Shown one piece after another: positions 336 to 27,464 of a DNA stretch of 27,464 nucleotides (its first letter is position 1; each line of letters opens with the position of its first letter). The stretch is from positions 1-27,464 of the IMG/VR virus record IMGVR_UViG_3300032284_001963; one strand, given 5' to 3'. The notes beneath the pieces were generated by a model. The model did no database searches and had not been told where the DNA came from. It saw only the letters and a list, made by a program, of their open reading frames with translations. The position numbers and the translations under genes were made by a program. Source of the DNA: a virus.

Positions 336-2915
336 TTACAAATATTTTATAAACTTATTGACTTTTTTGTTAAGATTTATTTGACCCCAATTCATATTTT
401 CATAAATCTTCGTCAATTTATTAATCAGATTGCGGTCAAACATAGCCTCTCTGTCAACATACTTATTCATTATTTCTCTAATATCAGGACAGGGTTCATA
501 ACCATTTATAGCCAAAACATCTATGTTATAAGGATTATCTTTTAAATAAACCCACAACATTTTATCCCCTGCCTGAATAATAGGGAAAGTTCTATGCATT
601 CCCTTAAATCGTAACAAATCATTGTGATAAATAGCCGCTTTGGTATTTACTGGACAATGTAATTTGGTTGTACTAAATATCTGACCGGCACCTGGAGCCT
701 TGCCAATATATTCTCTATACTTTTTTATTCCTGTAGGTTTAGCCACTTCTTCAAGAGAAAGCGTTTTAAACTTCTCCCTAAAGTTTAGAATGAGTTCATC
801 TACAAAATCTTTCTTTTTACCAAATAATAAGTTCTTAACTAAGTTTTGATAAAATTCTCTAAACAATTTAGGAAAAGAACTTTTCATACCATCAAGACCC
901 TTGAAATCAAAATCTTCAACGATCACACCTTCTCTGTCTACTATATATTGTGCATACTGTTTCTTAGCCGAAATATATAAAGTTTTAGAAATCGTCTCGG
1001 ATTTGATCCTAACCCGATTATTATCGGAGTTAAAATATCCTTTGGTAAAATAAGAAGCATAGTATTCGTTGAGAGTATCGGCAAATTCCTTCGCTATTGG
1101 TCTCAATTTTTCAATAGAGGTTTTATCATCATTAAGATCGATCTCGGGAAAACGATGCCTTAAAACGCTTCTAGCGTCAACATAAAGCGAATCTGTATCA
1201 GACATAAGAACATAATCATTGTCTGTACTACATTCCGCATTATATTTATCATTTACAAAATCGGCGGACCTCGTAACAATAACCCTACCAGTTGCAGTAA
1301 TAGCTGAAGCCAAATAATCCTTACCATCTGAATATCTAAAAGATTTTAGTCCCAAGCATCCATAGATGCTATTCAAAAATACCTTCATCACATTTTGATA
1401 CAGATCATAGAATTCAAACATTTTGGTGTTTCCTTCCTCACCATATTTAATCATTGTTTTTTTAAACTCTTTCCTCTTGATAAACCAAGATTCCATAACC
1501 GCTGCGAGAATGCTTTTGTTTTCAGTATTAAAAGCTACTCCATTAGGCGATATAGTAAAATTGTTTTTTTCTATTACATTAATAAGCTTTTCAATAGTAA
1601 CTTCTTTTATCATCCCGTTTAACCGTTCTACTTGAACAACATCCTCTGGGTTCTTCTGTTTCAATTCATGAAGATTCCAGGAATCATCAAACGGATCTTC
1701 TGTCACAACCTTGAAAACAAATGTTTCAATTCCCGCATTTAAAAGAATACCAGCACTGGGATATTCCGATTCAATGTCTAGATCAAAATTCCAGCCATAT
1801 AGTCCAGGTATGGGGTCTTTTACGTATGCTCCGGCAAATTTGTCATCTTCTTCACCTTCCGCTATGTCATTCAAGGTAGGATCGTTGGTTGTAGGTTTAT
1901 TGGGTGACACAATGTCCATCCTCTTCAAATAGGTCATAATAGCCCCTTCTACAACCCTGGATGATTGATATACGTAATGATAAGGCACATGACCTAGATG
2001 ACACACCATTATAGCAAGATCGATGAATTTCTTTTTACGATCTAGTTCTACAATAAGTCGAACGTCATTAACGTTATACTCAATAAATTTATTCACGTCC
2101 TCTTTGAACAATCTATCCAAACTTCCTTCATACTTAATTTTACCTTTACCCAATTCTTTTTGGGAAATGGCTTCCAAAGCATAAGAAGGCTGTTGGCGAG
2201 GAATAAATTTCTTATACAATCTAAGATAATCGAATGAATTAACACCGGCTATCTTATAAGGCATCTTATCATCTCTTTCATCAAAATCTACTATACCCAG
2301 AGGAGAAAGCTTATTAGCTTCTTTTTGGCCTATAAGCTTTTTCATTCTGTTATACAGGTACGGAATATCAAAAGAATCTCCATTCCAAGTAGAAACAATG
2401 GTAGGATCTATCTCAATCCATTTATCCAGAAATTTCCTAAGCAATTCTATTTCAGAAGTACATGGTATAACCGTAGTATCATCTTTTGTAGTAGACTGCA
2501 AATCGGAAGAAAGATCCAGGATGTAAACATAGTAATGTTTGGTATTTTCATCATAGACCGCAACGGCTGTGATTTTCATCGGAGCTTTCTGACAATATGC
2601 TAGATTTATCGCTTCTCCTCTTTCTGTTTCAATGTCGAGATAGATCCTGTTATGATAGGTCGGTACATCATCGACTTCCCTGTAAATGTCAAGAAGAATA
2701 CTTAAATTCTTGTCGACATCTTTCTCGTAGAGTTCAAAGTCCTCTTTGACGTACTTCTTTGTAGCATTGGCTCTTTTACCATCCAAAGTAGCAAATTCTC
2801 CATCCTCTGCCAACTTATAATAAGTGGGATTGTATGGAAATTTGATCCACCCTTCCGCATCATCCCTAAGATGACAAATGCGGTCTCTGTATGAATAGTA
2901 TATGCTTTGGTACAT
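336..2915 (-). CDS. 43: Family B replicative DNA polymerase (T4 gp43-like)
   Basis: This replicase copies the phage genome and proofreads with a 3'-5' exonuclease. Using ATG at 2915 it has 859 residues, close to T4 gp43 (898). Exonuclease motifs are intact: Exo I YLDIETE (D94, E96), Exo II TWNGDSFDIPYL (D183), Exo III YNVNDVRL (Y280, D284). Polymerase motif A is DIESEYPS (D380, steric-gate Y385), motif B KVFLNSIYGCLG (K511, N515, Y518) and motif C SDTDSLYVD (D573, D575). The usual Leu before the motif A Tyr is Glu. The frame stays open up to a GTG at 2951, but ATG 2915 lies one base after the dUTPase stop and gives a gp43-like N-terminus, so I chose it. It belongs to the dUTPase operon and probably acts with gp32, the helicase and a clamp. 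Confidence 0.96.
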   Translation of the reverse strand: MYQSIYYSYRDRICHLRDDAEGWIKFPYNPTYYKLAEDGEFATLDGKRANATKKYVKEDFELYEKDVDKNLSILLDIYREVDDVPTYHNRIYLDIETERGEAINLAYCQKAPMKITAVAVYDENTKHYYVYILDLSSDLQSTTKDDTTVIPCTSEIELLRKFLDKWIEIDPTIVSTWNGDSFDIPYLYNRMKKLIGQKEANKLSPLGIVDFDERDDKMPYKIAGVNSFDYLRLYKKFIPRQQPSYALEAISQKELGKGKIKYEGSLDRLFKEDVNKFIEYNVNDVRLIVELDRKKKFIDLAIMVCHLGHVPYHYVYQSSRVVEGAIMTYLKRMDIVSPNKPTTNDPTLNDIAEGEEDDKFAGAYVKDPIPGLYGWNFDLDIESEYPSAGILLNAGIETFVFKVVTEDPFDDSWNLHELKQKNPEDVVQVERLNGMIKEVTIEKLINVIEKNNFTISPNGVAFNTENKSILAAVMESWFIKRKEFKKTMIKYGEEGNTKMFEFYDLYQNVMKVFLNSIYGCLGLKSFRYSDGKDYLASAITATGRVIVTRSADFVNDKYNAECSTDNDYVLMSDTDSLYVDARSVLRHRFPEIDLNDDKTSIEKLRPIAKEFADTLNEYYASYFTKGYFNSDNNRVRIKSETISKTLYISAKKQYAQYIVDREGVIVEDFDFKGLDGMKSSFPKLFREFYQNLVKNLLFGKKKDFVDELILNFREKFKTLSLEEVAKPTGIKKYREYIGKAPGAGQIFSTTKLHCPVNTKAAIYHNDLLRFKGMHRTFPIIQAGDKMLWVYLKDNPYNIDVLAINGYEPCPDIREIMNKYVDREAMFDRNLINKLTKIYENMNWGQINLNKKVNKFIKYL

Positions 2916-2916
2916 T

Positions 2917-3375
2917 TTAATTACCGGTACTTCCAAATCCACCTTCTCCACGATCTGTGGAAGACAATTCTTCTACTTCTTCAAATTCGATAGGAATAAC
3001 TTCTTCTAAATATATTTGACCTATCCGTTCCCCTATCTCAAATGGCGGCTTCGCATATTCAAAACTATAATCAATAAATTTTGTAACACCTGTAGGGAGA
3101 GATCTAAATCTAAATTGATATTCTCCCATGTAATCCGCGTCTCCAAGACCAGGAGAATTTTGTAATATCCATTTTGTTTTAGTGATGGAACTACGCGGAA
3201 CCAATGTTATTTTAAAATTGGGTGGGGGTTGCATAGCCCATCCTATTTTATAAATCACTAAATCTCTACTATCTTGAATCATCTCTGTCGCAACTACGTC
3301 CCATCCACCCGCAAATTCTGTAGATCTCTTAGGTACTACAGCATTAAGATGCAATTTTTTAATCTTGATATTCAT
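2917..3375 (-). CDS. dut: dUTPase (trimeric dUTP diphosphatase)
   Basis: It hydrolyses dUTP to dUMP and pyrophosphate, which keeps uracil out of phage DNA and supplies the dTMP precursor. All five motifs of the trimeric family are present in 152 residues: I AGGWDVVA (22-29), II PRSS (60-63), III GLGDADYMGE (76-85, with catalytic Asp 79 and ribose-discriminating Tyr 82), IV GERIGQI (115-121) and V RGEGGFGSTG (142-151). Length is typical. ATG at 3375 overlaps the end of the upstream small gene by 17 bases, and its stop sits one base before the polymerase ATG. This suggests translational coupling. The position beside a ribonucleotide reductase and replicase fits nucleotide supply. Motif III reads G-L-G-D rather than the common G-V-I-D; otherwise it looks fully functional. 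Confidence 0.95.
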   Translation of the reverse strand: MNIKIKKLHLNAVVPKRSTEFAGGWDVVATEMIQDSRDLVIYKIGWAMQPPPNFKITLVPRSSITKTKWILQNSPGLGDADYMGEYQFRFRSLPTGVTKFIDYSFEYAKPPFEIGERIGQIYLEEVIPIEFEEVEELSSTDRGEGGFGSTGN

Positions 3376-3841: not shown

Positions 3842-4015
3842 TTATCGATTTTTCAAAATTTTATTTCCTTTTTGATTTTTTGGTTGATAAGGACAATTTA
3901 AACAACCGTTTCCACAACAAGATCCTCGTTGGGTTAAATAGAGAGCGGAGAATACCAAGTATCCCCGCTCGTCTATATAGTAATGAACACCCTCTATTAA
4001 TTTATTCGATGGCAC
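3842..4015 (-). CDS. DUF5522-like small Cys-rich protein
   Basis: The product has 57 residues if translation starts at GTG 4015. The core is YIDERGYLVFSALYLTQRG followed by SCCGNGCLNCPYQP. This matches the DUF5522 pattern of G-Y-x-V-F-T...RG-x-CC-x-x-GC-x-x-CPY, whose four cysteines probably bind metal. The function of the family is unknown. I know it chiefly from Bacteroidota genomes, which supports that host group. The frame is open to a TTG at 4048, inside the reductase gene. I prefer GTG 4015 because GGAGG stands five bases before it, inside codons for the reductase C-terminal CAGGQC tail. The gene therefore overlaps the reductase end by 14 bases (47 with the TTG start). One residue departs from the usual form: GCLNCPY instead of GCRHCPY. 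Confidence 0.8.
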   Translation of the reverse strand: MPSNKLIEGVHYYIDERGYLVFSALYLTQRGSCCGNGCLNCPYQPKNQKGNKILKNR

Positions 4016-5852
4016 ATTGTCCTCCCGCACAGGCCGCAACTTGACCAAAATCTACCGCATCGTCGAGTTCAATAACATTAGAAAGATCAAGAGCTTTTAA
4101 AGTATCAATTCTTTTATCATATTCTTCCTTAGTTATATCACAAAAAGGAGCTTGGGCATAACTGCCTCCAAAATGAGGCAATACACTAAGACCGTTATAA
4201 AATTCTTTATTGTCCCACATCCAGGAACCAACAGTTTCCCATTCATTTTCTTTTACATAAATGGTGGCAGATACGTTATGAGTATTATCTCCAGAAATAT
4301 GTCCAGGTTTAACCCATTCCTGAGAGAATTTTTTAACTCTTTCTAAAGTATCAATAGAAGATTCTGTTCTAAAAATAGAATTTTCAGGTGCTTTTACGGG
4401 AATTCTTACGCATAAAGTATCGTGAGGCCTAAGTACATCATCTTCACACAATTCAGGATGATTGACCATAAGATACATAGCAAGATCTTCATTCTTATTA
4501 AACCTCATGGTGCGAAGATAATAGTCGTTATGCCATGCGTGAATGCCGGAAGATGTTCCCAAAACAAGACTTGTAGTTCCAGAAGGTTTGATACAAGTTA
4601 CTCTAGCCGCAGGATTAGTTCCAATAATACCGCTAATCCTTTTATTAGTTTCTATAGCTAATTGTGAAGCGGCTTCCAAATCATAATTCAAAATTTCACC
4701 AGATCCTATTCCAGTCATACCGATACCTAAAAGAGCATCCTTCTGAGTAGTCTTTTGCCAAATAGGCCTGAGATAATGAAAATCTGTGAAACCGGCTTGA
4801 AGAGATCCAAATAAAGCAGCGGCTATTGCTCTTTCATTTAAATCTTCTTGACTAGAAATATCAGAAACATTTAGTTCGCAAAGATTGCAGAACTGATAAG
4901 GCCTGAGGCCGATTTCGCAGCAAGGATTAGTTCCCCAATCAATATTGTTGGTCCAATAAATTCCAGGTTCTCCGGAATTAGAGGCTTCAATACGTTTCCA
5001 AAGATTAAGAAATTCTTCTTGACTAATTTTTCCTCTTTCAAGAACGGCAGAGTTGTTTGCTCTTCCCCTCTGTTCATTTAATTCATACCATTCGCCATAT
5101 TTGCAAGTTATCATGTCTTCATCATCGTGGCTAAATAAAGCGATCATAGCACTTCTCCTGATACCACCAGCAAGAACACTGTTAGCAATATGACAAAGAA
5201 TATCATGACATTCCAAAGGAGTTAATTGCTCACCTTCTGCTTTTCTATCTAAAATAGCCTGGATATGGGCTAAGCAAAGTTTCAGAGGTTCGGGACCGGG
5301 AGCTTTGCCACCAGCAGTTACTAGCCTAGCACCTTTATGACGAATGCTCCTAAAATCAAAATTAGGCATAAACGATCCTTCTAAATATGCTTTCATAAGC
5401 ACTTTGACCGCATCTGCCCATCCCATAATAGAATCTTCAATCAGATAATTTCTTTTCTTACCAGGAATTTTTACAGAAGGAAGAGTAGAAACATGGTGTT
5501 TTTGTACAGAATAACCTACACCGGTTCCTCCAAGAAGAAGAAACATCGTTTCGCTAAAACTATGAATGCTATCAATAGGTAAAAAGCAACAATTATATAT
5601 GCGAGAATTATTAACCTCAGCAGCAGGTCCTGCAAATTGTAACGCTCTCATAGAAGGTAAAACCTTCTTATCTCTGATAAATTTGGATTTTTCTATGATA
5701 ACATCTTCAAGTTTAGGATACTTGTTGACCATCATTTCAACATATCTATCTACAATCTCATCCCAAGTTTCTCTTCTTTTCTGTTCCGGAATATACTTCG
5801 CGTATTTACTAAATACTGTAATCGAACTCAAGGCTTCAAGTCCCAAATCCAT
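4002..5852 (-). CDS. nrdJ: Class II (adenosylcobalamin-dependent) ribonucleotide reductase
   Basis: It reduces ribonucleotides to deoxyribonucleotides using a thiyl radical generated from coenzyme B12. The 616 residues include LPSMRALQFAG (65-75), YNCC (86-89, first active-site Cys), GGTGVGYSV (108-116), GGIRRSA (229-235), NPCCEIGL (309-316, with radical Cys 311 and Glu 313) and FCNLCE (321-326, Cys 322 as the second redox Cys). They also include KPSGTTSLVLGTSSGIHA (422-439) and the C-terminal shuttle pair CAGGQC (608-613). The tail closely resembles CEGGAC of the monomeric Lactobacillus enzyme. It is shorter than that enzyme (739), with no separate ATP-cone visible. There is no class I small subunit or class III activase in the window, as expected for class II. 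It would need host B12 or a host salvage pathway. Confidence 0.93.
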   Translation of the reverse strand: MDLGLEALSSITVFSKYAKYIPEQKRRETWDEIVDRYVEMMVNKYPKLEDVIIEKSKFIRDKKVLPSMRALQFAGPAAEVNNSRIYNCCFLPIDSIHSFSETMFLLLGGTGVGYSVQKHHVSTLPSVKIPGKKRNYLIEDSIMGWADAVKVLMKAYLEGSFMPNFDFRSIRHKGARLVTAGGKAPGPEPLKLCLAHIQAILDRKAEGEQLTPLECHDILCHIANSVLAGGIRRSAMIALFSHDDEDMITCKYGEWYELNEQRGRANNSAVLERGKISQEEFLNLWKRIEASNSGEPGIYWTNNIDWGTNPCCEIGLRPYQFCNLCELNVSDISSQEDLNERAIAAALFGSLQAGFTDFHYLRPIWQKTTQKDALLGIGMTGIGSGEILNYDLEAASQLAIETNKRISGIIGTNPAARVTCIKPSGTTSLVLGTSSGIHAWHNDYYLRTMRFNKNEDLAMYLMVNHPELCEDDVLRPHDTLCVRIPVKAPENSIFRTESSIDTLERVKKFSQEWVKPGHISGDNTHNVSATIYVKENEWETVGSWMWDNKEFYNGLSVLPHFGGSYAQAPFCDITKEEYDKRIDTLKALDLSNVIELDDAVDFGQVAACAGGQCAIE

Positions 5853-5984: not shown

Positions 5985-7328
5985 TTAACTTCTCGACAAT
6001 CTGGTTCTCAGATTATTAAGATCGTCATTACTAAATTCCCCGTTTCCATCTTGTTCTTCTTCCTCATCATAAAGGTCTTCCGATATATCGATAACGCCAG
6101 AACTAAGGTCGATTTTGGCAGCATAGGTCATTCCGTCAGGTCCCAATCGCGATTTCATGATATGAAACCTACCAGTACCATTGATTTTATCTTTACGCTT
6201 TCTAGAAAGTGACACACTAAAGTCAGCAATCATCATCTTGCCAAAACTTCCTGCTACCTTATCACTTTCAATAATCTCGTCTCTGGCACCCATGCGATTA
6301 ATCTGAGAAGGACAAATGAATGGAATCTTCATGTCTTTGGCGAGACCTTTTAGATCGGTATATATATCATCGATCTCTTCTTTGGTCTCTTTGCGGACCT
6401 TCCTGGCCCTTAAAAGATCGGGGTAGTCTATTATAACCAGATCAGGAATAAACTCGCTATTGGCCTCTGTCTGCCTCAGGTGAGATTCTATAGTATCTAG
6501 AGAAGCGCGACCAGGAGAATATTCTTTGATTATTATTCTTCCGGGTAATTCCTGGATTGCTTTAGTTACTTCTTTCCTATGAAATTTTAATTTCTTGATG
6601 TCGATTCCAGTGAGGATAGAATCGATTTTTTTACCTACATACCTCTCGTCTAGTTCGAGAGTATAATAAATGACTTTATAACCTAACTTAACAGCGTTTG
6701 CAGCTATGCAACATACAACAGTACTTTTACCTATGCCGGGAGGAGCAAACAGAAGCATGAGATTTCCATATCCTACTCCGCCGTCTGTAATATCGTTGAA
6801 AACCTTCCAAGGGAAAGGTATCTTATGATCCTCTTCTTCCCTAAATCTCGTTTCAATATCCTTTTCGTATTCATGGCCGATATTCTTATCGTTACCGGAT
6901 TTCAATGCATTGTCGATAAGTTTCCTTATCCCTTCATATTCTCCGTCTTTAAGAAGATCGACTGACGTTAATAAAGCTTCTTTTAACCTTTGGTTTTTGC
7001 AAAAATTAAAAAATTCTTCTTTTACATATTCGATTTCGTCGTGAGTAGTAGTATAAATCTGTTTTAATTCATTCTTGATAGAAACTCTCAGTACCTCATT
7101 CTCTTCTTTCTTCATTTCTACCTTCAAAACTTCCATAGTAGGATACGTATGATACTTTGCATAGTATTCTAAAACAGAATTGATAATCCATTTGTGTGCA
7201 GGAGATTCAAAATAATCGCCTGTTAAAACATCAGCTATCTTCTGAAGGAATGGTCTATCCTGGAGGAGAGAGTACAAGACTTTGATTTGGAACTGGTGGC
7301 CGTATTGTTCCAATTTATTTGCTGTCAT
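5985..7328 (-). CDS. 41: Replicative DNA helicase (DnaB family, T4 gp41-like)
   Basis: This hexameric 5'-3' helicase would unwind the fork on the lagging-strand template. The 447 residues are close to T4 gp41 (475). The N-terminal helical domain covers about 1-150. The RecA-type motor follows, with Walker A APPGIGKST (195-203), YYTLELDERYVGKK after it, Walker B PDLVIIDY (296-302, Asp 301), then CPSQINR (sensor-type Gln) and FSVSLSRKRKD. The C-terminus is acidic (DLYDEEEEQDGN) and ends LRTRLSRS, a possible interaction tail. ATG at 7328 lies 12 bases after the exonuclease stop. No separate primase or helicase loader is visible in this window. Confidence 0.93.
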   Translation of the reverse strand: MTANKLEQYGHQFQIKVLYSLLQDRPFLQKIADVLTGDYFESPAHKWIINSVLEYYAKYHTYPTMEVLKVEMKKEENEVLRVSIKNELKQIYTTTHDEIEYVKEEFFNFCKNQRLKEALLTSVDLLKDGEYEGIRKLIDNALKSGNDKNIGHEYEKDIETRFREEEDHKIPFPWKVFNDITDGGVGYGNLMLLFAPPGIGKSTVVCCIAANAVKLGYKVIYYTLELDERYVGKKIDSILTGIDIKKLKFHRKEVTKAIQELPGRIIIKEYSPGRASLDTIESHLRQTEANSEFIPDLVIIDYPDLLRARKVRKETKEEIDDIYTDLKGLAKDMKIPFICPSQINRMGARDEIIESDKVAGSFGKMMIADFSVSLSRKRKDKINGTGRFHIMKSRLGPDGMTYAAKIDLSSGVIDISEDLYDEEEEQDGNGEFSNDDLNNLRTRLSRS

Positions 7329-7340
7329 AGAGTATAGATT

Positions 7341-8381
7341 TTATTTGTAACTGTTCAAAACCGAAAACAAATTCAACCAAACTTCTAAGTTGGGGATATT
7401 ATCCGCCATCTTATCATGATTATAAAGTTTGATAAAATCATATTTCCTAAAAATCGGAATAGGAGAATGATATATGCTCTGTATTTTATTTTCATCATCT
7501 TCTGTAATGTTTATCTCTTTGAGATCCATAAGACGATAAAAAATATCCAGATCATTTTTTACATTTAACACCCTTTCATATAAAACCGATTTTTTCGGAG
7601 GGTGTTCACAAAGATCGTATAAATTTTCGATACTTTTAGCTTCGCTTTCAGATAAAAGCTGAAAAAGTTTTGGAGTATTTTTTTCACCTAACCCACTAAC
7701 CCCAGGAATATTATCTGAATCATCGCCAATCAAAATCTTATACAGAAGAAAATTAATAGGATGTACTTGATATTCTTCAAGAACGTTTCCTATTTCATAT
7801 ATTTTCTTTTTTATAGGGCTATAAACTTTTACTCGATTATTTATTAGCTGTAAATAATCAGTATCAGTAGACATTATATAAACATTAGCATCATCATATT
7901 CTCTTTGTACATGCTCAGTTATATATCCAATAACATCATCTGCTTCTAATCGATCTATAGAAATAGATATCAAAGGAAGATACGATAAATAATCCATTAA
8001 ACGAACTACTTGTTCGTATTTAGATTCATCTTCATCTTCTTTATTATCAAAAGATCTTCGATTTAATATTCTTGGTCTATTTCTGTTTGCTTTGTACGGA
8101 GGATACAAATATTTTCTATTAACCGACCCGGATTCACCATCAAATACGATGATGACCCGAGTCGGATTTAATATCTTAATAGCATGGCCTACAGATTTTA
8201 GGAATCCTATAATTCCACCAACATCATGGCCCATAAGATTACTTCTAGTAACAGCAGCAAACCCTCTTAAAAAAGTATTGATACCATCGACTAGAAGAAT
8301 CCTGCTATTTAGATGAAAATTGGGTTTGGATTCTTCCTTATCTATTTTAGAAAAAATATCAAGAAGTCTGTTTTTATCCAT
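7341..8381 (-). CDS. 5'-3' exonuclease / flap endonuclease (T4 RNase H-like)
   Basis: It should remove RNA primers and 5' flaps during lagging-strand synthesis. It belongs to the family that also forms the N-terminal domain of bacterial Pol I. The 346 residues carry the metal-binding acids in order: LLVDG (Asp 32), VIIVFDG (Asp 81), EADDVIGY (Glu 146, Asp 148, Asp 149), STDTDYLQL (Asp 173, Asp 175) and IGDDSDNIPGV (Asp 220, 221, 223). They are followed by the helix-hairpin GVSGLGEKNTPKLF that binds DNA. All expected acids are present. The gene starts one base after the uvsX stop. It is notable that a Pol I-like polymerase without this domain is encoded about 2.5 kb upstream in the same module. 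Confidence 0.92.
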   Translation of the reverse strand: MDKNRLLDIFSKIDKEESKPNFHLNSRILLVDGINTFLRGFAAVTRSNLMGHDVGGIIGFLKSVGHAIKILNPTRVIIVFDGESGSVNRKYLYPPYKANRNRPRILNRRSFDNKEDEDESKYEQVVRLMDYLSYLPLISISIDRLEADDVIGYITEHVQREYDDANVYIMSTDTDYLQLINNRVKVYSPIKKKIYEIGNVLEEYQVHPINFLLYKILIGDDSDNIPGVSGLGEKNTPKLFQLLSESEAKSIENLYDLCEHPPKKSVLYERVLNVKNDLDIFYRLMDLKEINITEDDENKIQSIYHSPIPIFRKYDFIKLYNHDKMADNIPNLEVWLNLFSVLNSYK

Positions 8382-8382
8382 A

Positions 8383-9474
8383 TCAATCTTCTATTGTGTA
8401 TTCAGCAGAGGGAGTTTTATCTTCAGGAATATCTTCTTCCATATAAACGTGAACTTCACCGTCTCCCAGGATAGAAAGCCATTCTGATCTATGTTCCTTC
8501 TTGTACTTTTCGATTGCCGAAGGAGTATCTTCGATGAATCCGTGGGCAGTCATTACAATACGAGCAGAAGTTGTAGATTCAGTAATATGGTTTTTATCTA
8601 CTGAAATCTTAGTCCTCTTAGCAAACACAACTGTTTTCTTATCTTTCTGCGCTTCAACTTTTGAAGTACCAGAATTAGTTATATTACCTAAGGTAATAAC
8701 CAAAGTAGCGTCCCAATACATGGCATCACCACCTTTATTCTTCATTTTGGGTTTTTCATTAGGATTATTAACCGGATATTCTACTCTCACTTTATTCACA
8801 ACTACAAAAGTATTTGTGAATTTATTAGAAGCTTTTCTAGATAGAGTAAACTCCTGGTTAATGAAATTACCAAACTGCGTAGACATTGCAGCAGCATTCC
8901 ACATTGCATTGTTCTTTCCAGACTCTACGCTTTGCAAAGAAGGGATAGAACCAGCAGAATCCCAAAGGAAAACAAGATCAAAAGGAAGATTTCCTTTCTT
9001 TTGTTCACTAAGAATATCAGTAATGAAATTTGCTACATCCTCAATCGTATAAAGAGACGATCTATCGACATAAATGAAATTTCCGCCATAACTAACTTCT
9101 CCAGTTTCAGGATCCGGTTTCATCTCTGCTTGGAATCCCATCTGAATAGCATGTTCGAAACTCCATTTCATCTCAGTAACAATGAGAATAGGTAAAAGTC
9201 CCATTTTTTGAGCAGCTACCGTAGCTTCAATCATAGCAAGAGTCTTCCCAGTATCACTATGACCTCTAATGATTGTGATGTGGCCTTTTGGATATCCCGG
9301 CAAAGAAATAGCATTATTAAAAGCCGGTGAGAACGGTATCCATTCCGTCTTCTTAAACTTAGTATTGTCAATAAGATTTTTGGATTTCTTAAAACTATCT
9401 AAGTCAAAGGTACGCGATTTTTTATCAAGAGCGCTTGTTACAGCGCCCTTGATATTTTTTGTTTCTCCAGACAT
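8383..9474 (-). CDS. uvsX: UvsX/RecA-like recombinase
   Basis: This ATP-dependent strand-exchange protein drives recombination-dependent replication and repair in T4-type phages. The 363 residues include PGYPKGHITIIRG leading into Walker A GHSDTGKT (71-78), LIVTEMKWSFE after it (with the catalytic-Glu position near 101), Walker B LVFLWDS (167-173) and a Gln-containing loop region (AAAMSTQFGNFINQ). The C-terminus is acidic (EEDIPEDKTPSAEYTIED), as in UvsX, where such tails modulate partner binding. T4 UvsX has 391 residues, so this is full length. It lies 10 bases after gp32, its functional partner, which also suggests co-expression. No UvsY is recognised in the window. Confidence 0.93.
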   Translation of the reverse strand: MSGETKNIKGAVTSALDKKSRTFDLDSFKKSKNLIDNTKFKKTEWIPFSPAFNNAISLPGYPKGHITIIRGHSDTGKTLAMIEATVAAQKMGLLPILIVTEMKWSFEHAIQMGFQAEMKPDPETGEVSYGGNFIYVDRSSLYTIEDVANFITDILSEQKKGNLPFDLVFLWDSAGSIPSLQSVESGKNNAMWNAAAMSTQFGNFINQEFTLSRKASNKFTNTFVVVNKVRVEYPVNNPNEKPKMKNKGGDAMYWDATLVITLGNITNSGTSKVEAQKDKKTVVFAKRTKISVDKNHITESTTSARIVMTAHGFIEDTPSAIEKYKKEHRSEWLSILGDGEVHVYMEEDIPEDKTPSAEYTIED

Positions 9475-9484
9475 ATGAATTTAA

Positions 9485-10366
9485 TTAATCTTCGTCTTCA
9501 AATACTTCGTTAAACTTGTCCGATGCGTTTTTATGCGTTCCTTTTTTGTTAGAACTGCCTTTAGGCGGATCAGGAGTAAACGGAGGCGTATCATCTTCTT
9601 CCTGGGTCTCAGGAGCCGATACTGTTACTTCTTCAGAAGATTCTTCAACTTCATCATCAGACTTCTGAGCGGTGGCATCAGAAGGACTAATATAGTTTTT
9701 AAGCATTTGCTTAATATCCTCGTAAGAATACCTCTTGTAAATTTCGAGAATATCCTTTTGATTTTCGAGGAAGGCCTTTACTTCGGCTTCAGTCTTAGCC
9801 AGAGGAGTAGAATTCCTTTTGGGTGTGATATTCACCGCAATATATTCCACTTCTTTCTTACCAATTTTTACAGAATCCTTATAACCTTCTACCGTAAGAT
9901 CCGTGCCGCTTACGATGTTGTCGATTTCGCCGTAATCTTCATTAGCCATAATAGTGAGAAGTTTCTCATAGGTAGTTTTGTTAAACTCCCAAATCCTGGT
10001 TCCGAGATTTTCTTCCCCACGTACTACTACTTGAGCAAAAAATTTGTAGCGAGGACCGATTTTTTTAGCTAATTCTTTGGATTCTGCCGTGTTTTCGTTG
10101 TAAAGTTCTTTTACAAGCTGAACTACAGGGTCTTTCTCACCAAAATTTTCCAAGCAATAGATGCTTTTCTTGAATACGTTGTACTGGTGGAAAGAGACTT
10201 CCGCAAAGGGATAGTCGGGGTTGGATTTGCGCGGAACAATTCGAACTACTTGCGAACCAATTTTTGGTTTCCAGAAGAGAGTTTTGAAATCTATTTTCTC
10301 TCCGTTGTTAGAACCTTTTGATTGCATTTTCGACAGTCGCTGTTTGATCAGATCAATGTTTGACAT
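9485..10366 (-). CDS. 32: Single-stranded DNA-binding protein (T4 gp32-like)
   Basis: It coats single-stranded DNA at the fork and during recombination and organises the replisome. The 293 residues (T4: 301) show a basic N-terminal segment (IKQRLSKMQSKGSNNGEK), a core with TLFWKPKIGSQVVRIVP and TRIWEFNKTTYEKLL, and a low-complexity acidic C-terminus rich in Asp, Glu, Ser and Pro that ends FEDED. This is the hallmark partner-binding tail. In T4, zinc is held by one His and three Cys. Here His 60 and Cys 71 remain, but the positions of the last two cysteines fall in FGEKDPVVQLV without any Cys, so the zinc site is apparently lost. A host-type promoter candidate stands 26 bases before the ATG. 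Confidence 0.92.
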   Translation of the reverse strand: MSNIDLIKQRLSKMQSKGSNNGEKIDFKTLFWKPKIGSQVVRIVPRKSNPDYPFAEVSFHQYNVFKKSIYCLENFGEKDPVVQLVKELYNENTAESKELAKKIGPRYKFFAQVVVRGEENLGTRIWEFNKTTYEKLLTIMANEDYGEIDNIVSGTDLTVEGYKDSVKIGKKEVEYIAVNITPKRNSTPLAKTEAEVKAFLENQKDILEIYKRYSYEDIKQMLKNYISPSDATAQKSDDEVEESSEEVTVSAPETQEEDDTPPFTPDPPKGSSNKKGTHKNASDKFNEVFEDED

Positions 10367-10432: not shown

Positions 10433-10825
10433 TTAATTCAACGAAATTATTTTATGGATTTTAGTATTCAGCCTAGTGAATAAGCCAGTACGGTTTAACA
10501 GAATGCTATTCCGGTAATCGTTCCAGTTAATTTTATAAGTCTTATCTACGATACCGTTATTTAAATTGGCTATCAGCAGATTTAAAGAATTTATAGTATA
10601 TAAAGTGTCTGTTTCTTTCCTCCTATGCATCAATATAGTGCCTGGGATCATTCTCGATCTATCGGTATTTTCTATATCGATATTATAAGTGCATACGTAT
10701 TCTGTGCCGTCGACTATTTCTAAAACAAAAATCTTAGAATATTTCACCGTATAAGTGGAATTGATTCTAGTCAATGTTTCGTCTAGCGCATCTTTAGGAG
10801 AAAAAGTACAAAATAACTTATTCAA
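10433..10825 (-). CDS. Unknown 130-aa protein between polA-like gene and gene 32
   Basis: I do not recognise this protein. The only usable start is TTG at 10825, because an in-frame TAG stands 27 bases upstream. It is predicted to be an alpha/beta protein: KIFVLEIVDGTEYVCTYNID is strand-like, HRRKETDTLYTINSLNLLI follows, and the C-terminal part (INWNDYRNSILL, then LNTKIHKIISL) is mixed. There are no membrane segments and no Cys-rich metal site. Length is near T4 RegA (122 aa), the translational repressor found near gene 43, but I see no convincing RegA similarity. It lies 67 bases after the family A polymerase and before the gp32 promoter, so it is probably the last gene of the polymerase transcript and replication-related. 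Confidence 0.75.
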   Translation of the reverse strand: MNKLFCTFSPKDALDETLTRINSTYTVKYSKIFVLEIVDGTEYVCTYNIDIENTDRSRMIPGTILMHRRKETDTLYTINSLNLLIANLNNGIVDKTYKINWNDYRNSILLNRTGLFTRLNTKIHKIISLN

Positions 10826-10892: not shown

Positions 10893-12230
10893 TCACAAGG
10901 TTTTCATTTCTTGATAATTTTTACCATACCTACATGAAGTTGCAAAACCTCCTTGTTCTAAAGTCTCCTGGATACAGTTTAAAAGCTCTTTACCGTCCTC
11001 TTTGGAATAATCGATCAGAAATGAGTCATAGCAATATAATACCAATTCACTTTTTTTACCCTCTAGGCATTTTAAGACCTCGCTTAAGATCATTATATTT
11101 CTCTCCGTCTCGTAATTCTGAAGGAGATACGGGAGAATTTGAGTTTTAGATTCTATCCCTGTTATAGGTTTTTTAGAAATGGGACTATCTAACCTTTTAG
11201 TTTTTTTGTAATTATCCCACAAAGTGTTTTTAAATTCCCGAACTTTCCATATAAAAGGTACATTTTCTAACTCCGGAATATCGGTTTCTGTATAAAGAAG
11301 CTTAAAAGTCAATTTTTTACTTTCATCGTATTCTTCCTTTGATATCTCGTCTTTCTCGAAATAGCTTTTGGCTAGATGTGTATGTATATCCGTCTCATCA
11401 AACTTATAATCAATGAGTTCACATAATATCCTCAAATGATAAGACGAATAATCAAACTCTATTAAGTAGTTGTTCTTAGATCGAATTGCCGATCTGCTGC
11501 CATCTTCTTTATTTAAAGCCGCAAAATTTATCCCATTAAAAGCGTTAGATGGCCTACCCGTAACAGTAAACATATTATAAGAAGAGTATATAATATCATC
11601 TTTAATAGAAAACAGGGGGTCTTTAAGAGTGAAATGCTTTTTTAATTCCTTTTGATTTACTTTAATTCCATTCTTTTCTATTTGATAGAATATCTCTACA
11701 GCCATATCAGAATAAAATTTCTGGTAGCCTCGAGTAAACATTTTATCTATATCCTCAAAAGAGGAATATAAAGATTGCATTTTTTCATAATGTTTACTTA
11801 TGGGAATAAGTTTATTTACCGCCAAATCATTACCGAATTTTTGTTGAAAATATCTATGAGCTTTAGTATTAAAGGAAGATTCATCCAGGATCTTCCCAGA
11901 TTTCAAGTATAAGCCTGTTTTTAGGCAAAATAAGGCCTCTTTCCTATTAAAATAATATCGGAACCTCTTAGCGTCTACAGCGTAAATTTGGCCTACTGTA
12001 TGGTCTATAAACGATACTACGTCGGCTAGAGGTAAAGAAAAGGCTTCTTCATGATCGATTGGTAGAATAAAACCGGTTCTAGAACGAAAAGGTTTAATAT
12101 AAACAAGACAAATAGGAGATATTTTATTGTGGCAGTGATCGTTGTGAGGAACAATATCAACCACACACTTGGAAAAGTCGTATTTCGAAAATTTTTCTAA
12201 TTGTTCTTTCGTCTCTATTATATAATACAC
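10893..12230 (-). CDS. Divergent thumbless family A DNA polymerase with degenerate exonuclease domain
   Basis: Family A motifs run in the right order in 445 residues: FYQIEKNGIKVN (181-192), TGRPSN (224-229, for TGRLSS), motif A DYSSYHLR (260-267, for DYSQIELR), DIHTHLA (281-287), motif B KKLTFKLLY (305-313, keeping Pol I K758, F762, Y766), a motif QNY (371-373, Q849) and motif C CYDSFLID (400-407, for VHDELVFE). Both catalytic Asp are kept (260, 402). The distance from IEKNG to TGR is about 41 residues instead of about 120, so the thumb is missing. Glu 710 (steric gate) is His 265, Arg 754 is lost and motif C His is Tyr. Residues 1-140 look like a DnaQ fold lacking Exo I Glu (VVDIVP) and Exo II Asp. 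It starts at GTG 12230, the first start after an in-frame stop. Activity is unproven. Confidence 0.85.
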   Translation of the reverse strand: MYYIIETKEQLEKFSKYDFSKCVVDIVPHNDHCHNKISPICLVYIKPFRSRTGFILPIDHEEAFSLPLADVVSFIDHTVGQIYAVDAKRFRYYFNRKEALFCLKTGLYLKSGKILDESSFNTKAHRYFQQKFGNDLAVNKLIPISKHYEKMQSLYSSFEDIDKMFTRGYQKFYSDMAVEIFYQIEKNGIKVNQKELKKHFTLKDPLFSIKDDIIYSSYNMFTVTGRPSNAFNGINFAALNKEDGSRSAIRSKNNYLIEFDYSSYHLRILCELIDYKFDETDIHTHLAKSYFEKDEISKEEYDESKKLTFKLLYTETDIPELENVPFIWKVREFKNTLWDNYKKTKRLDSPISKKPITGIESKTQILPYLLQNYETERNIMILSEVLKCLEGKKSELVLYCYDSFLIDYSKEDGKELLNCIQETLEQGGFATSCRYGKNYQEMKTL

Positions 12231-12247: not shown

Positions 12248-12279
12248 CAAAAGTAATTTATTTGGCGTATTGAACCAAA
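12248..12279 (-). promoter_or_regulatory. Bacteroidota-type promoter for the replication module
   Basis: On the minus strand TTTG (12279-12276) is followed after 20 bases by TACTTTTG (12255-12248), a full match to TTTG-N19/20-TAnnTTTG. It overlaps the last codons of the 173-aa structural gene. Transcription would begin about 10 bases before the GTG of the family A polymerase, giving a very short leader. It marks the border between the virion and replication modules. Confidence 0.55.
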
Positions 12280-12779
12280 TTTTTAAAATACTGGCTGATT
12301 CCAGGTATTTTGCTTTCTAAATTCTTTAAAGTTTTTTGATTTGTGCTTATTATGCCATCAACAGGCAAATTCATATTATAAAAAACATCATTTATAGGTC
12401 CTGTTATTTTCCACTTAAAAGAGACTTGAGTATATAAAGGATTAGATAAACTTTTATTATAATCTTCCTGATTGATCTCTTTAATTGTTTCATAACCACT
12501 ATTTACTCTTTTCATGGCATATCTTGTTATATAGCCTTTATTATAATCATCCTGGGTTGGTATCGGTATATAAGAATCAGGAGTGGTTATTTCAACGTTG
12601 ATATTTGAATTGTTTTTTATTAATTCTTTAGCCTCTAAATTAAAAGTAGCACCAGTATAGTATTTACCATCAGATGTAGCATAATAATATCCTTTATAAG
12701 GTTTTAAAGTATCCTTATATACTAAATCTGCTCCTGTGGATCTTAAATTGGGAGTTATTTCAGACGGAGGATAATACAT
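12258..12779 (-). CDS. Unknown 173-aa protein, probable virion-associated
   Basis: I cannot assign a function. The N-terminus MYYPPSEITPNLRSTGADLV followed by YKGYYYATSDGKYYTGATF is of a type I associate with virion-module proteins of large tailed phages. The Tyr/Gly-rich GYYY...GKYYTG segment (about 29-45) suggests a small beta structure. The middle (TPDSYIPIPTQDDYNKGYITRYAMK) and the C-terminus (GISQYFKNLVQYAK) have no recognised motif. ATG 12779 lies 15 bases after the 1028-aa hub candidate without a late element, so it should share that transcript. It is the last gene of the structural module, and the replication-module promoter overlaps its end. A baseplate or fibre-linked role is inference. 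Confidence 0.7.
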   Translation of the reverse strand: MYYPPSEITPNLRSTGADLVYKDTLKPYKGYYYATSDGKYYTGATFNLEAKELIKNNSNINVEITTPDSYIPIPTQDDYNKGYITRYAMKRVNSGYETIKEINQEDYNKSLSNPLYTQVSFKWKITGPINDVFYNMNLPVDGIISTNQKTLKNLESKIPGISQYFKNLVQYAK

Positions 12780-23515: not shown

Positions 23516-25750
23516 TTATTGGAAAGTTGCGCCAGTTGCTGTAATATTGAATTCCAACAGAATAAATTCGATCGATTTAGTCGGAGATACGAAGATCTTA
23601 CCTACTAATTGGTTACGATCAATTACATCATTAGTATTCAAAGTTTCATCAATCTGAACCCTGAAAGCATAAAGACCTTGACGAGATTGAACGTTCTCCA
23701 TATAAGGTACAATCTGGTTGACCAGTTTATTCCTGGTGGCGACAGTATTGTTTTCGAATACGAAGTATTTAGCAATCTGATTAATATGTGTACGGAGATC
23801 GATTAACAATCTGCGAACATTGATTCTATTAAGGGCCGTATCTTTCTTCTGCATGGTTTTCTGTCCCCAGATAACCACACCGGTATTCGGGAATTTAGCA
23901 ATCGGATTGATTCTAGCAGCATACAGAGTATCGCGATCAGATTTACTGAGTTTGAATCTAGTATCAACTGCACCAAGAATACCTCTAGAAAGACCAGCCG
24001 GAGCATACCATGCAGCGGCTACTCTATCATTATATGCATATGCCTGAGGAACAACTACCGACGGAGGAACTATAATCTGTTTAGAACTACCGACAGAGTT
24101 CACTTTAACCCAGGAATAGTAAGTGGAGCAATAGCTAGAGTCTATGCCAGCGGCAAGAGAAGTAGCAGTTACAATAGTACTATTCATACCGGTAAGATCT
24201 CTGATATAAACACAATCTGTGCGAGTTTCTGCTATAGACTGTGCATATGCAGTTACAGCACCGTGATATTCATCGATTACACCCGGAAGAGCTAACAGAT
24301 CAAATACATATTCTTCAGCATTAACCAGGATATCAAGAGCCTTTTTATAGGAAATATATCCAGCGGCAGAAGTAGAAGAAAGGTTGTATCCAAATACGTT
24401 AGTACCGTCAGCAGCAATTGCCGAACCGATCTTAGGTATAACAACATAGTTCATACCATCAGATCCACCTTGGAACGGAATAATGAATTTATTATCGTTA
24501 GAAGGTTTGGTAAAGTTCGCATTAAGACCTACACCAGCTTCAAGAGGAACAGGATTAAGGTAATTGTAGTTATCTGTATTGGAATAATCAAATCCAGAAT
24601 ATACGTAGGAACCTGTATTACTTAAAGATACGCTTGCCGAAGGCAAGTAAGAGCCAGAAATACCAGCTATAGTTTCATACACCGCTTCATACCCATTAGG
24701 AATAAGCTGCGGATAGGCAGTAGCATTGGTAACGCCATCTACTACTTCTACTCTAATATAGTTAGATACATTATCGTAGTTTCCATATTCTATTACTTTA
24801 CCTTGAACATCATTATATTCAAGATACTTATCGCCAATCATCTTGGCTATAAAGTTTGCAGAATTAGGATCTAAGCTAACACCAATATACTGTTCTAAGA
24901 TAGAAGGATATTTGTCACTATCATTCCAAGCTCTAACAAGAATATCAAAAGTAGAATAAGTGCTAGGCGTAGCACCAACAGTAATATTGCTAAGACTTAT
25001 TTTAACGTCTGTATTTGTTTTAAATCCGTCAGACCTGTGATGGAATTTGAAAAGTCTAATTCCACTATCTGAAAGAATCCAGGGAGTAGTTGCGTGAGAA
25101 TAACCACCGGCATAAGAACTAGTAAATGTACAAGCTGTAGTAGTAAATTTGAAAGAACTAGTTACAGAAGAAGTGAGTACAATGCTAGCACTAGAAATAT
25201 AGTTATCAAAAAGCAAATACGGGAAAACTGATCCAGTCTGATGGTTAGCATCATTACCAAGAACTTTAGAAATGTAAAGCGTGGAGGTAGGATCTAAAGA
25301 TGCACTAAACGAAAGTTTAGAGTAAGAACCCGTCAAATTAATATTGAAAGATCCGAACGAACCAGTAATCTGCGCACCATTTAATGCGACAGTTGTAGTA
25401 TTATTCTGAGTAGGATATAATACAGATAAAATTGTTGAGCCGGTTACAATTGCGGCCAACTGGTAAGTATTGTTATATACCCAACCGCCGTTACCGAGGA
25501 TCCTAGTTACTTTTACAGTACTTCCTGCCTGAAGATAACTATACACCGTTTGAGTAGTATAGTTTGTACTGGCATCGGATCCAAATAAATTGGTGAATTG
25601 AGAATAACTGGTTACATCAATGGGAACAAAAGCGGGTCCCTTTTGGGTGGGGCCGACTACTGCTAAACCGGTTGTAGCATTTCCTTGAGTGTAAAAACTT
25701 TGATCGTTTTCACTCTGATATACACCCGCAGAGAGGATTTTTTCTGTCAT
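23516..25750 (-). CDS. 18: Tail sheath protein (T4 gp18-like)
   Basis: The contractile outer sheath of the tail is built from this subunit. The 744 residues (T4 gp18: 659) begin with ILSAGVYQSENDQSFYTQG and TTGLAVVGPTQKGPAFVP, the conserved N-terminal sheath handle that links to the neighbouring subunit. The middle is a Ser/Thr/Asn-rich variable surface domain (about 90-430). The conserved C-terminal domain holds FPNTGVVIWGQKTMQKKDTA, LNRINVRRLLIDLRTHINQI, FVFENNTVATRNKLVNQIV and the closing strand (SPTKSIEFILLEFNITATG). It is placed before the tube gene, as in T4. A long 5' leader with a late element about 40 bases from the ATG precedes it. The family assignment is secure. Confidence 0.96.
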   Translation of the reverse strand: MTEKILSAGVYQSENDQSFYTQGNATTGLAVVGPTQKGPAFVPIDVTSYSQFTNLFGSDASTNYTTQTVYSYLQAGSTVKVTRILGNGGWVYNNTYQLAAIVTGSTILSVLYPTQNNTTTVALNGAQITGSFGSFNINLTGSYSKLSFSASLDPTSTLYISKVLGNDANHQTGSVFPYLLFDNYISSASIVLTSSVTSSFKFTTTACTFTSSYAGGYSHATTPWILSDSGIRLFKFHHRSDGFKTNTDVKISLSNITVGATPSTYSTFDILVRAWNDSDKYPSILEQYIGVSLDPNSANFIAKMIGDKYLEYNDVQGKVIEYGNYDNVSNYIRVEVVDGVTNATAYPQLIPNGYEAVYETIAGISGSYLPSASVSLSNTGSYVYSGFDYSNTDNYNYLNPVPLEAGVGLNANFTKPSNDNKFIIPFQGGSDGMNYVVIPKIGSAIAADGTNVFGYNLSSTSAAGYISYKKALDILVNAEEYVFDLLALPGVIDEYHGAVTAYAQSIAETRTDCVYIRDLTGMNSTIVTATSLAAGIDSSYCSTYYSWVKVNSVGSSKQIIVPPSVVVPQAYAYNDRVAAAWYAPAGLSRGILGAVDTRFKLSKSDRDTLYAARINPIAKFPNTGVVIWGQKTMQKKDTALNRINVRRLLIDLRTHINQIAKYFVFENNTVATRNKLVNQIVPYMENVQSRQGLYAFRVQIDETLNTNDVIDRNQLVGKIFVSPTKSIEFILLEFNITATGATFQ

Positions 25751-26748: not shown

Positions 26749-27464
26749 TTATCCTATATAAGCGGCTGAAAAGTTATCATTCCCATCAAATGAAATTGAA
26801 CCTAATGTGACCTCAACATATAAAGTGTCCCCCACAGCCAATTTACTAATAGTACTGCCACCTATGTGATTTGCTGTAGTATTAGCGGCCCATTCAAGCA
26901 TAATTTGAGATGTTATTGTTCCTCCACTATTTTTTCTTACTATAATTTGTGCAGAAGGATTTGAGTTACCCGATGTTCTACAAACAACATTTACTTGATA
27001 TAATCCAGCTATAGGCGCAGTAAATCTTCCGTTTGTAGAATTATAAGCATTTCCTTGATTAAAATCTACAGATACTGCACTTCCAGATATTACTGTTGTT
27101 GCAGATATAGTGGCACCTGTTCCTACTACTCTAAAAGCTGGCCTGTTAGGCATAGTTAAAGAGCCGCTTATATTCATATCACCAGCATCACTTAAAGAAA
27201 GTAAGGTGCTAGAATAAGCGCTGTTTATAATTTCAAAACCACCAGTTCCATTTATTCTAAAAAACTTATTGGTATTAGTGGCCCCGGATGATAAATTCTT
27301 TACAGACAGAAAATCTATATAAGAAGATCCACCTACAGTATTAGAACCAGAAACAACTATAGCTGCACCAGCTCCATTACCATTAGGAATGGCAAATAAA
27401 GAACCGGAGTTCATTTTTATACCACCATTTATCTCCAACTTTTGAGTTATGCTGGTAGTTCCTA
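26749..27464 (-). CDS. C-terminal part of tail fibre with C1q-like tip (gene continues beyond window)
   Basis: The frame is open to the right edge (the codons before the apparent TTG start at 27438 read GTTSITQK), so only the last 238 residues are here. The N-terminal half has repeated fibre-type strands (SGSNTVGGSSYIDFLSVKNL, LSLSDAGDMNISGSLTMPNR). The C-terminal 135 residues look like a C1q/TNF jelly roll: PAFRVVGTG, YNSTNGRFTAPIAGLYQVNV, QIIVRKNSGG, LAVGDTLYVEV and a final strand (NDNFSAAYIG). C1q-type tips on phage fibres bind host surface sugars or proteins, so this is probably a receptor-binding protein. The fold is inferred by pattern. It is the first gene of the module and is not followed by a visible hairpin terminator. 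Confidence 0.82.
   Translation of the reverse strand, partial: GTTSITQKLEINGGIKMNSGSLFAIPNGNGAGAAIVVSGSNTVGGSSYIDFLSVKNLSSGATNTNKFFRINGTGGFEIINSAYSSTLLSLSDAGDMNISGSLTMPNRPAFRVVGTGATISATTVISGSAVSVDFNQGNAYNSTNGRFTAPIAGLYQVNVVCRTSGNSNPSAQIIVRKNSGGTITSQIMLEWAANTTANHIGGSTISKLAVGDTLYVEVTLGSISFDGNDNFSAAYIG

Follow-up and report, generated by a model that had tools for sequence, protein, structure and literature searches.

Many mostly aquatic phages share a family A DNA polymerase that lacks the thumb

The open reading frame at positions 10893-12230 of the window (the whole virus record of 27,464 bases that was analysed here) is a divergent family A DNA polymerase. Its missing thumb is read, by homology, as a derived loss within the Pol I superfamily, since the remainder of the protein aligns over its full length. 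A large number of bacterial viruses, most of them aquatic, encode relatives; each has a separate full-size replicase where one could be identified, and the thumbless enzyme is probably a working helper polymerase. Besides a replication block, the window carries T4-like tail genes for sheath, tube and baseplate, and all of these genes lie on the minus strand. Searches of the window for Rfam RNAs and tRNAs found none. The features assigned are as follows.

12258-12779, minus strand: p173, conserved protein upstream of the polymerase (tblastn; found in 72 of 92 loci)
10893-12230, minus strand: thumbless family A DNA polymerase, 445 aa, GTG start (Pfam, profile, AlphaFold2 [AF2] model)
11736-12230, minus strand: vestigial 3'-5' exonuclease-like domain, about residues 1-165, DEDD ligands not conserved (structural alignment to Bacillus BF from residue 300 and profile alignment; boundary approximate)
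11562-11666, minus strand: 35-residue link at the thumb position, residues 189-223 (profile alignment, AF2)
10902-11609, minus strand: palm and fingers, residues 208-443 (profile alignments)
11436-11453, minus strand: motif A, D260..H265 (E. coli D705..E710; family alignments; Glu to His invariant in the family)
11292-11330, minus strand: motif B, Y301-x3-K305-x3-F309-x3-Y313 (E. coli R754, K758, F762, Y766; family alignments)
11010-11030, minus strand: motif C, Y401-D402-S403-F404-x2-D407 (E. coli H881-D882-E883; family alignments)
10433-10825, minus strand: p130, conserved small protein directly downstream of the polymerase (synteny, family conservation)
9485-10366, minus strand: single-strand DNA-binding protein, SSB (phrog_224, E 1e-15, and synteny)
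8383-9474, minus strand: UvsX/RecA-like recombinase (phrog_97, E 7e-19)
7341-8381, minus strand: stand-alone Pol I-type 5'-3' exonuclease, FEN-like (PF02739, E 3e-29; PF01367)
5985-7328, minus strand: DnaB-like replicative helicase (phrog_19, E 8e-78)
4002-5852, minus strand: ribonucleotide reductase large subunit, RNR (phrog_367, E 1e-122)
336-2951, minus strand: family B DNA polymerase, presumed replicase of the window phage (phrog_262 positions 29-856 of 856, E 1e-152; PF00136; MSDTDSLY motif)

The GTG start is shared by a 53%-identical relative in L001, and p173 gave no convincing family match. Among the tail genes, the sheath protein (23516-25750, minus strand) has 744 amino acids against 496 positions in the phrog_23 profile, and an inserted domain is probable. 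A C1q-domain protein (PF00386, E 4.5e-8; 26749-27438, minus strand) adjoins the tail genes and is perhaps a tail fibre or receptor-binding protein.

Assignment to family A (the Pol I superfamily) is supported by motifs, profiles and fold. A first-pass annotation of the window had described the family A motif series in the correct order, with both catalytic Asp residues and the equivalents of F762, Y766 and Q849, and had proposed structure prediction with superposition on Klenow, a profile search and a phylogeny; the profile alignments agree with its description, and all three analyses were run. The only Pfam match of the window protein was to DNA_pol_A (residues 208-314, E 3.3e-8), at 33.3 bits versus a curated cut-off of 34.3 and therefore just under it. 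For a profile of 49 relatives, Klenow was the best match among PDB sequences (E 7.8e-9); the family A match is clear. The AF2 model (pLDDT 92.5, pTM 0.89) matched PDB structures with Foldseek E values down to 3e-19 and fitted the Bacillus and Mycobacterium Pol I large fragments end to end over 411-415 of 445 residues (VIA Z 28), with the palm and fingers fold present. Ten of the 49 members had no DNA_pol_A match in Pfam at E up to 1; curated databases overlook this polymerase group or detect it weakly.

The distance from IEKNG (184-188) to TGR (224) is 35 residues in the window protein versus 121 in E. coli Pol I, and the corresponding IE-NG to TGR spacing is 35 in 81 of 90 relatives and 17-37 in the remainder. 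The thumb had initially been called absent from spacings of about 41 and about 120 residues, a conclusion that stands with slightly corrected lengths. Profile-profile alignment of residues 1-443 with Klenow 6-605 (E 2.4e-16) contains a single large gap at Klenow chain 235-316, or Klenow residues of about 558-639, which places an 82-residue deletion at the thumb helices. In the AF2 model the link between the exonuclease domain and TGR has a single seven-residue helix (193-199) rather than a helical thumb, and no thumb was found elsewhere in the modelled chain; since 415 of the 445 residues have a counterpart in the Bacillus enzyme, the protein carries no additional domain at another place. A split or intron-broken replicase can be ruled out, as the frame begins with the exonuclease-like domain, varies little in length among about 90 relatives and, the thumb excepted, aligns from end to end.

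Most of the Pol I active site is retained. R226, D260, K305, F309, Y313, Q371 and D402 are identical to E. coli R668, D705, K758, F762, Y766, Q849 and D882, respectively. The replacement of Glu 710 by His 265 had been noticed at the outset and proved to be invariant in the family; Arg 754, described then as missing, is indeed not an Arg, and a mostly conserved Tyr (Y301) stands in its place. Glu 883 is replaced by Ser403 (Ser or Ala in the family). In an alignment of 49 sequences, the most distant of them 29% identical to the window protein, T224, R226, N235, D260, H265, K305, F309, Y313, Q371, E374, T375, N378, Y401, D402 and D407 are invariant. The first IMG/VR search patterns contained D260/H265 and the motif C Asp, which biased those columns, and the test was therefore repeated on loci found via p130. 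In 58 polymerases chosen by this neighbour, some of them on contigs that also belonged to the pattern-selected set, these fifteen residues, among them H265 and the R668, D705, K758, F762, Y766, Q849 and D882 equivalents, were again all invariant. The median dN/dS of closely related pairs (n=94) was 0.10, with a maximum of 0.22. Together with the invariant active site, this indicates that the gene is under strong constraint and that the active site is kept; these genes are not decaying and form a distinct, probably active group.

The N-terminal exonuclease domain is kept as a fold, with model residues from 1 aligning to BF from 300. Loss of the exonuclease metal ligands, another initial observation, is borne out by the lack of conserved acidic residues at the positions aligned with the DEDD ligands rather than by a residue-exact superposition, as the alignment is loose in this domain and least certain there.

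Compared with the bacterial Pol I large fragment (Klenow, Bacillus BF and M. smegmatis Pol1), the window protein has the exonuclease-like domain, palm and fingers in the same order and shares the seven identical residues named above. It differs by the absent thumb, the E710 to His, R754 to Tyr and E883 to Ser/Ala changes and the lost exonuclease ligands; identity is about 16%, and in the phage the 5' nuclease is a separate gene. Actinobacterial PolA2/APEX resembles it as a second family A polymerase with an inactivated 3'-5' exonuclease and without a 5' nuclease domain, but is described as confined to Actinobacteria and as carrying a clamp-binding motif, with no thumb loss described in the excerpted account (PMC12926913). 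The same paper provides a precedent for division of Pol I functions between a solo FEN nuclease and other enzymes, with a solo 5' nuclease kept in bacteria that lack Pol I (PMC12926913). DNA polymerase X of ASFV, a thumbless viral polymerase that fills gaps, is alike in its working only, belonging to family X with an unrelated fold and evolution; it thus offers a precedent from another family for a thumbless gap-filling polymerase (PMC5330486).

Relatives were found in at least 581 IMG/VR stretches and in eight bacterial-genome contigs. Among 50,697 phage records, they were found in four Flavobacterium phage immuto records, the huge uncultured phage LR756508 and Microcystis phage Mel-JY01; the immuto relative (34% identity) is annotated as "DNA polymerase family A". 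In a tree of the palm and finger region, a branch with 100/100 support separated all 21 sampled thumbless proteins from Pol I, from SPO1-type and T5-type polymerases and from the phages' own replicases; the thumbless proteins are likely a clade in this tree, which was rooted by midpoint only. The tree and the profile scores rule out a recent duplicate of the phage's own replicase. No thumbless or truncated family A phage polymerase was found in the open-access literature searched.

The genomes that carry the thumbless enzyme also carry another polymerase, of full size, which supports the earlier suggestion that it is not the main replicase. The complete family B (gp43-type) polymerase reported in the window was confirmed, and a family B enzyme also accompanies the thumbless one in LR756508, Mel-JY01, G019 and G020. 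As a general rule this pairing does not hold, since most relatives are paired with a full-length family A polymerase (immuto, G003, G004, G005, G007, G018, G021-G023 and the MAG G016). No genome among these records was seen to have replicases of both families. Retention of the thumbless enzyme across the swap between family A and family B replicases argues for a function of its own. The full-length family A replicases (immuto gp199 type; 768-787 aa) share the family and the genomes with it; however, they have Leu at 762 in those read, form a separate group (100/100) and are hardly detected by the thumbless profile. In G001 (147 kb), the other polymerase looks like family A in two overlapping frames of 466 and 201 aa (L104, 1489-3451). 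In LR756508 the family B matches fall in two long frames (1022 and 625 aa; about 260623-266900) with several kb between them, which suggests inteins, introns or a split gene.

The order p173, polymerase, p130, SSB, UvsX, 5' nuclease, DnaB helicase (and RNR) is kept in nearly all loci that are long enough. The catalytic activity, substrates, partners and biological role of the thumbless polymerase are inferred, and the preferred reading, which we consider about evenly poised between right and wrong, is that it is a distributive accessory family A polymerase for filling short gaps and for extending intermediates of recombination or repair, while another enzyme copies the genome. The fold, the deletion, the invariant site, the constraint, the synteny and the second polymerase in the genome all speak for this role. 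Without a thumb the enzyme would grip DNA weakly and synthesize distributively, and the lack of proofreading would suit it to short synthesis; a template- and dNTP-binding active site would be retained under strong purifying selection, with replication of the genome left to the separate family A or family B enzyme. Together with the Pol I-type 5' nuclease, which is encoded as a separate protein four genes away, it could carry out the Okazaki or gap-repair work of bacterial Pol I, and 5' nuclease, SSB and UvsX, as partners in the same block, would make up a "Pol I split over several genes". Of the roles that the first-pass annotation had suggested, gap filling or lesion bypass fits best. Several points weigh against the preferred reading: E710 is His, and most or all members have other residues at R754 and E883, both of which matter in Klenow, so that catalysis could be weak or altered; the gene order may stem from the shared ancestry of a single phage lineage rather than from cooperation, and p130 may be the real partner, with a different role.

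A translesion or mutagenic polymerase, whose open, thumbless site without proofreading would bypass lesions or extend D-loops inaccurately, is an unlikely but credible alternative; it would account for the absent thumb, the lost exonuclease ligands and the changed E710 and R754, with UvsX and SSB nearby, but the sequence gives no distinction from faithful short-gap filling, and no SOS-type or lesion-bypass partner was identified. Replacement of E710, R754 and E883, along with the further family-specific invariants E374, T375, N378 and D407, could also point to a scaffold without catalytic activity, serving to bind DNA or replication proteins. Pseudoenzymes usually lose catalytic residues, however, while here both catalytic Asp and the K758, F762, Y766, R668 and Q849 equivalents are invariant in about 90 to 100 sequences, to about 25% identity, and a scaffold seems quite unlikely. 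The invariant His at the steric gate may alter sugar selection, and ribonucleotide use is a possibility; in BF, E658A (the equivalent of E710) lowers rNTP exclusion (PMC7200780). Ribonucleotide use had been proposed on the strength of this change but does not follow from it, as His is bulky rather than small and F762 and Y766 are kept. No primase was found in the 27 kb window, as first reported, which reflects the size of the fragment: of eight related records above 100 kb, six encode a DnaG-type primase, including immuto, Mel-JY01 and LR756508, and the two that lack it, G018 and G019, are not known to be complete. These DnaG primases make a substitute-primase role unlikely, and the window protein has neither Toprim/zinc-ribbon nor AEP domains; the one primase-named match among 49 relatives was weak and came from a single member (PriX, E 0.041). 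A primer-making or ribonucleotide-incorporating polymerase is the least probable reading.

Finally, p130 could supply a thumb or processivity factor in trans, giving a two-subunit polymerase. In each of the 58 loci that extend far enough, the polymerase gene sits 20-96 nt upstream of that for p130, the two co-occur in the same six of 50,697 phage records, and p130 is the more conserved (mean column identity of 63% versus 49%), with invariant H67-R68-x-K70 and Y76-T77-x-N79. However, its predicted fold is compact alpha/beta with a ferredoxin-like beginning, not a helical thumb, and had no significant match in the PDB, and inheritance within a lineage could explain the co-occurrence; the idea that p130 is a displaced thumb is thus disfavoured, and supply in trans appears very unlikely. 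A broader proposal, phage-specific two-component polymerases in which a thumbless catalytic subunit with an altered nucleotide gate would use p130 (or SSB) as a DNA grip in trans, for a step of recombination-dependent replication beyond either replicase type, is distinctly improbable.

Family A polymerases are regarded as needing the thumb, a basic element of their structure, to hold the primer-template. Its loss from hundreds of phage enzymes whose catalytic centre is unchanged would show that catalysis of the family A type is possible without a thumb, and would identify, in a large set of aquatic phages, a second polymerase that stays while the replicase swaps between families A and B.
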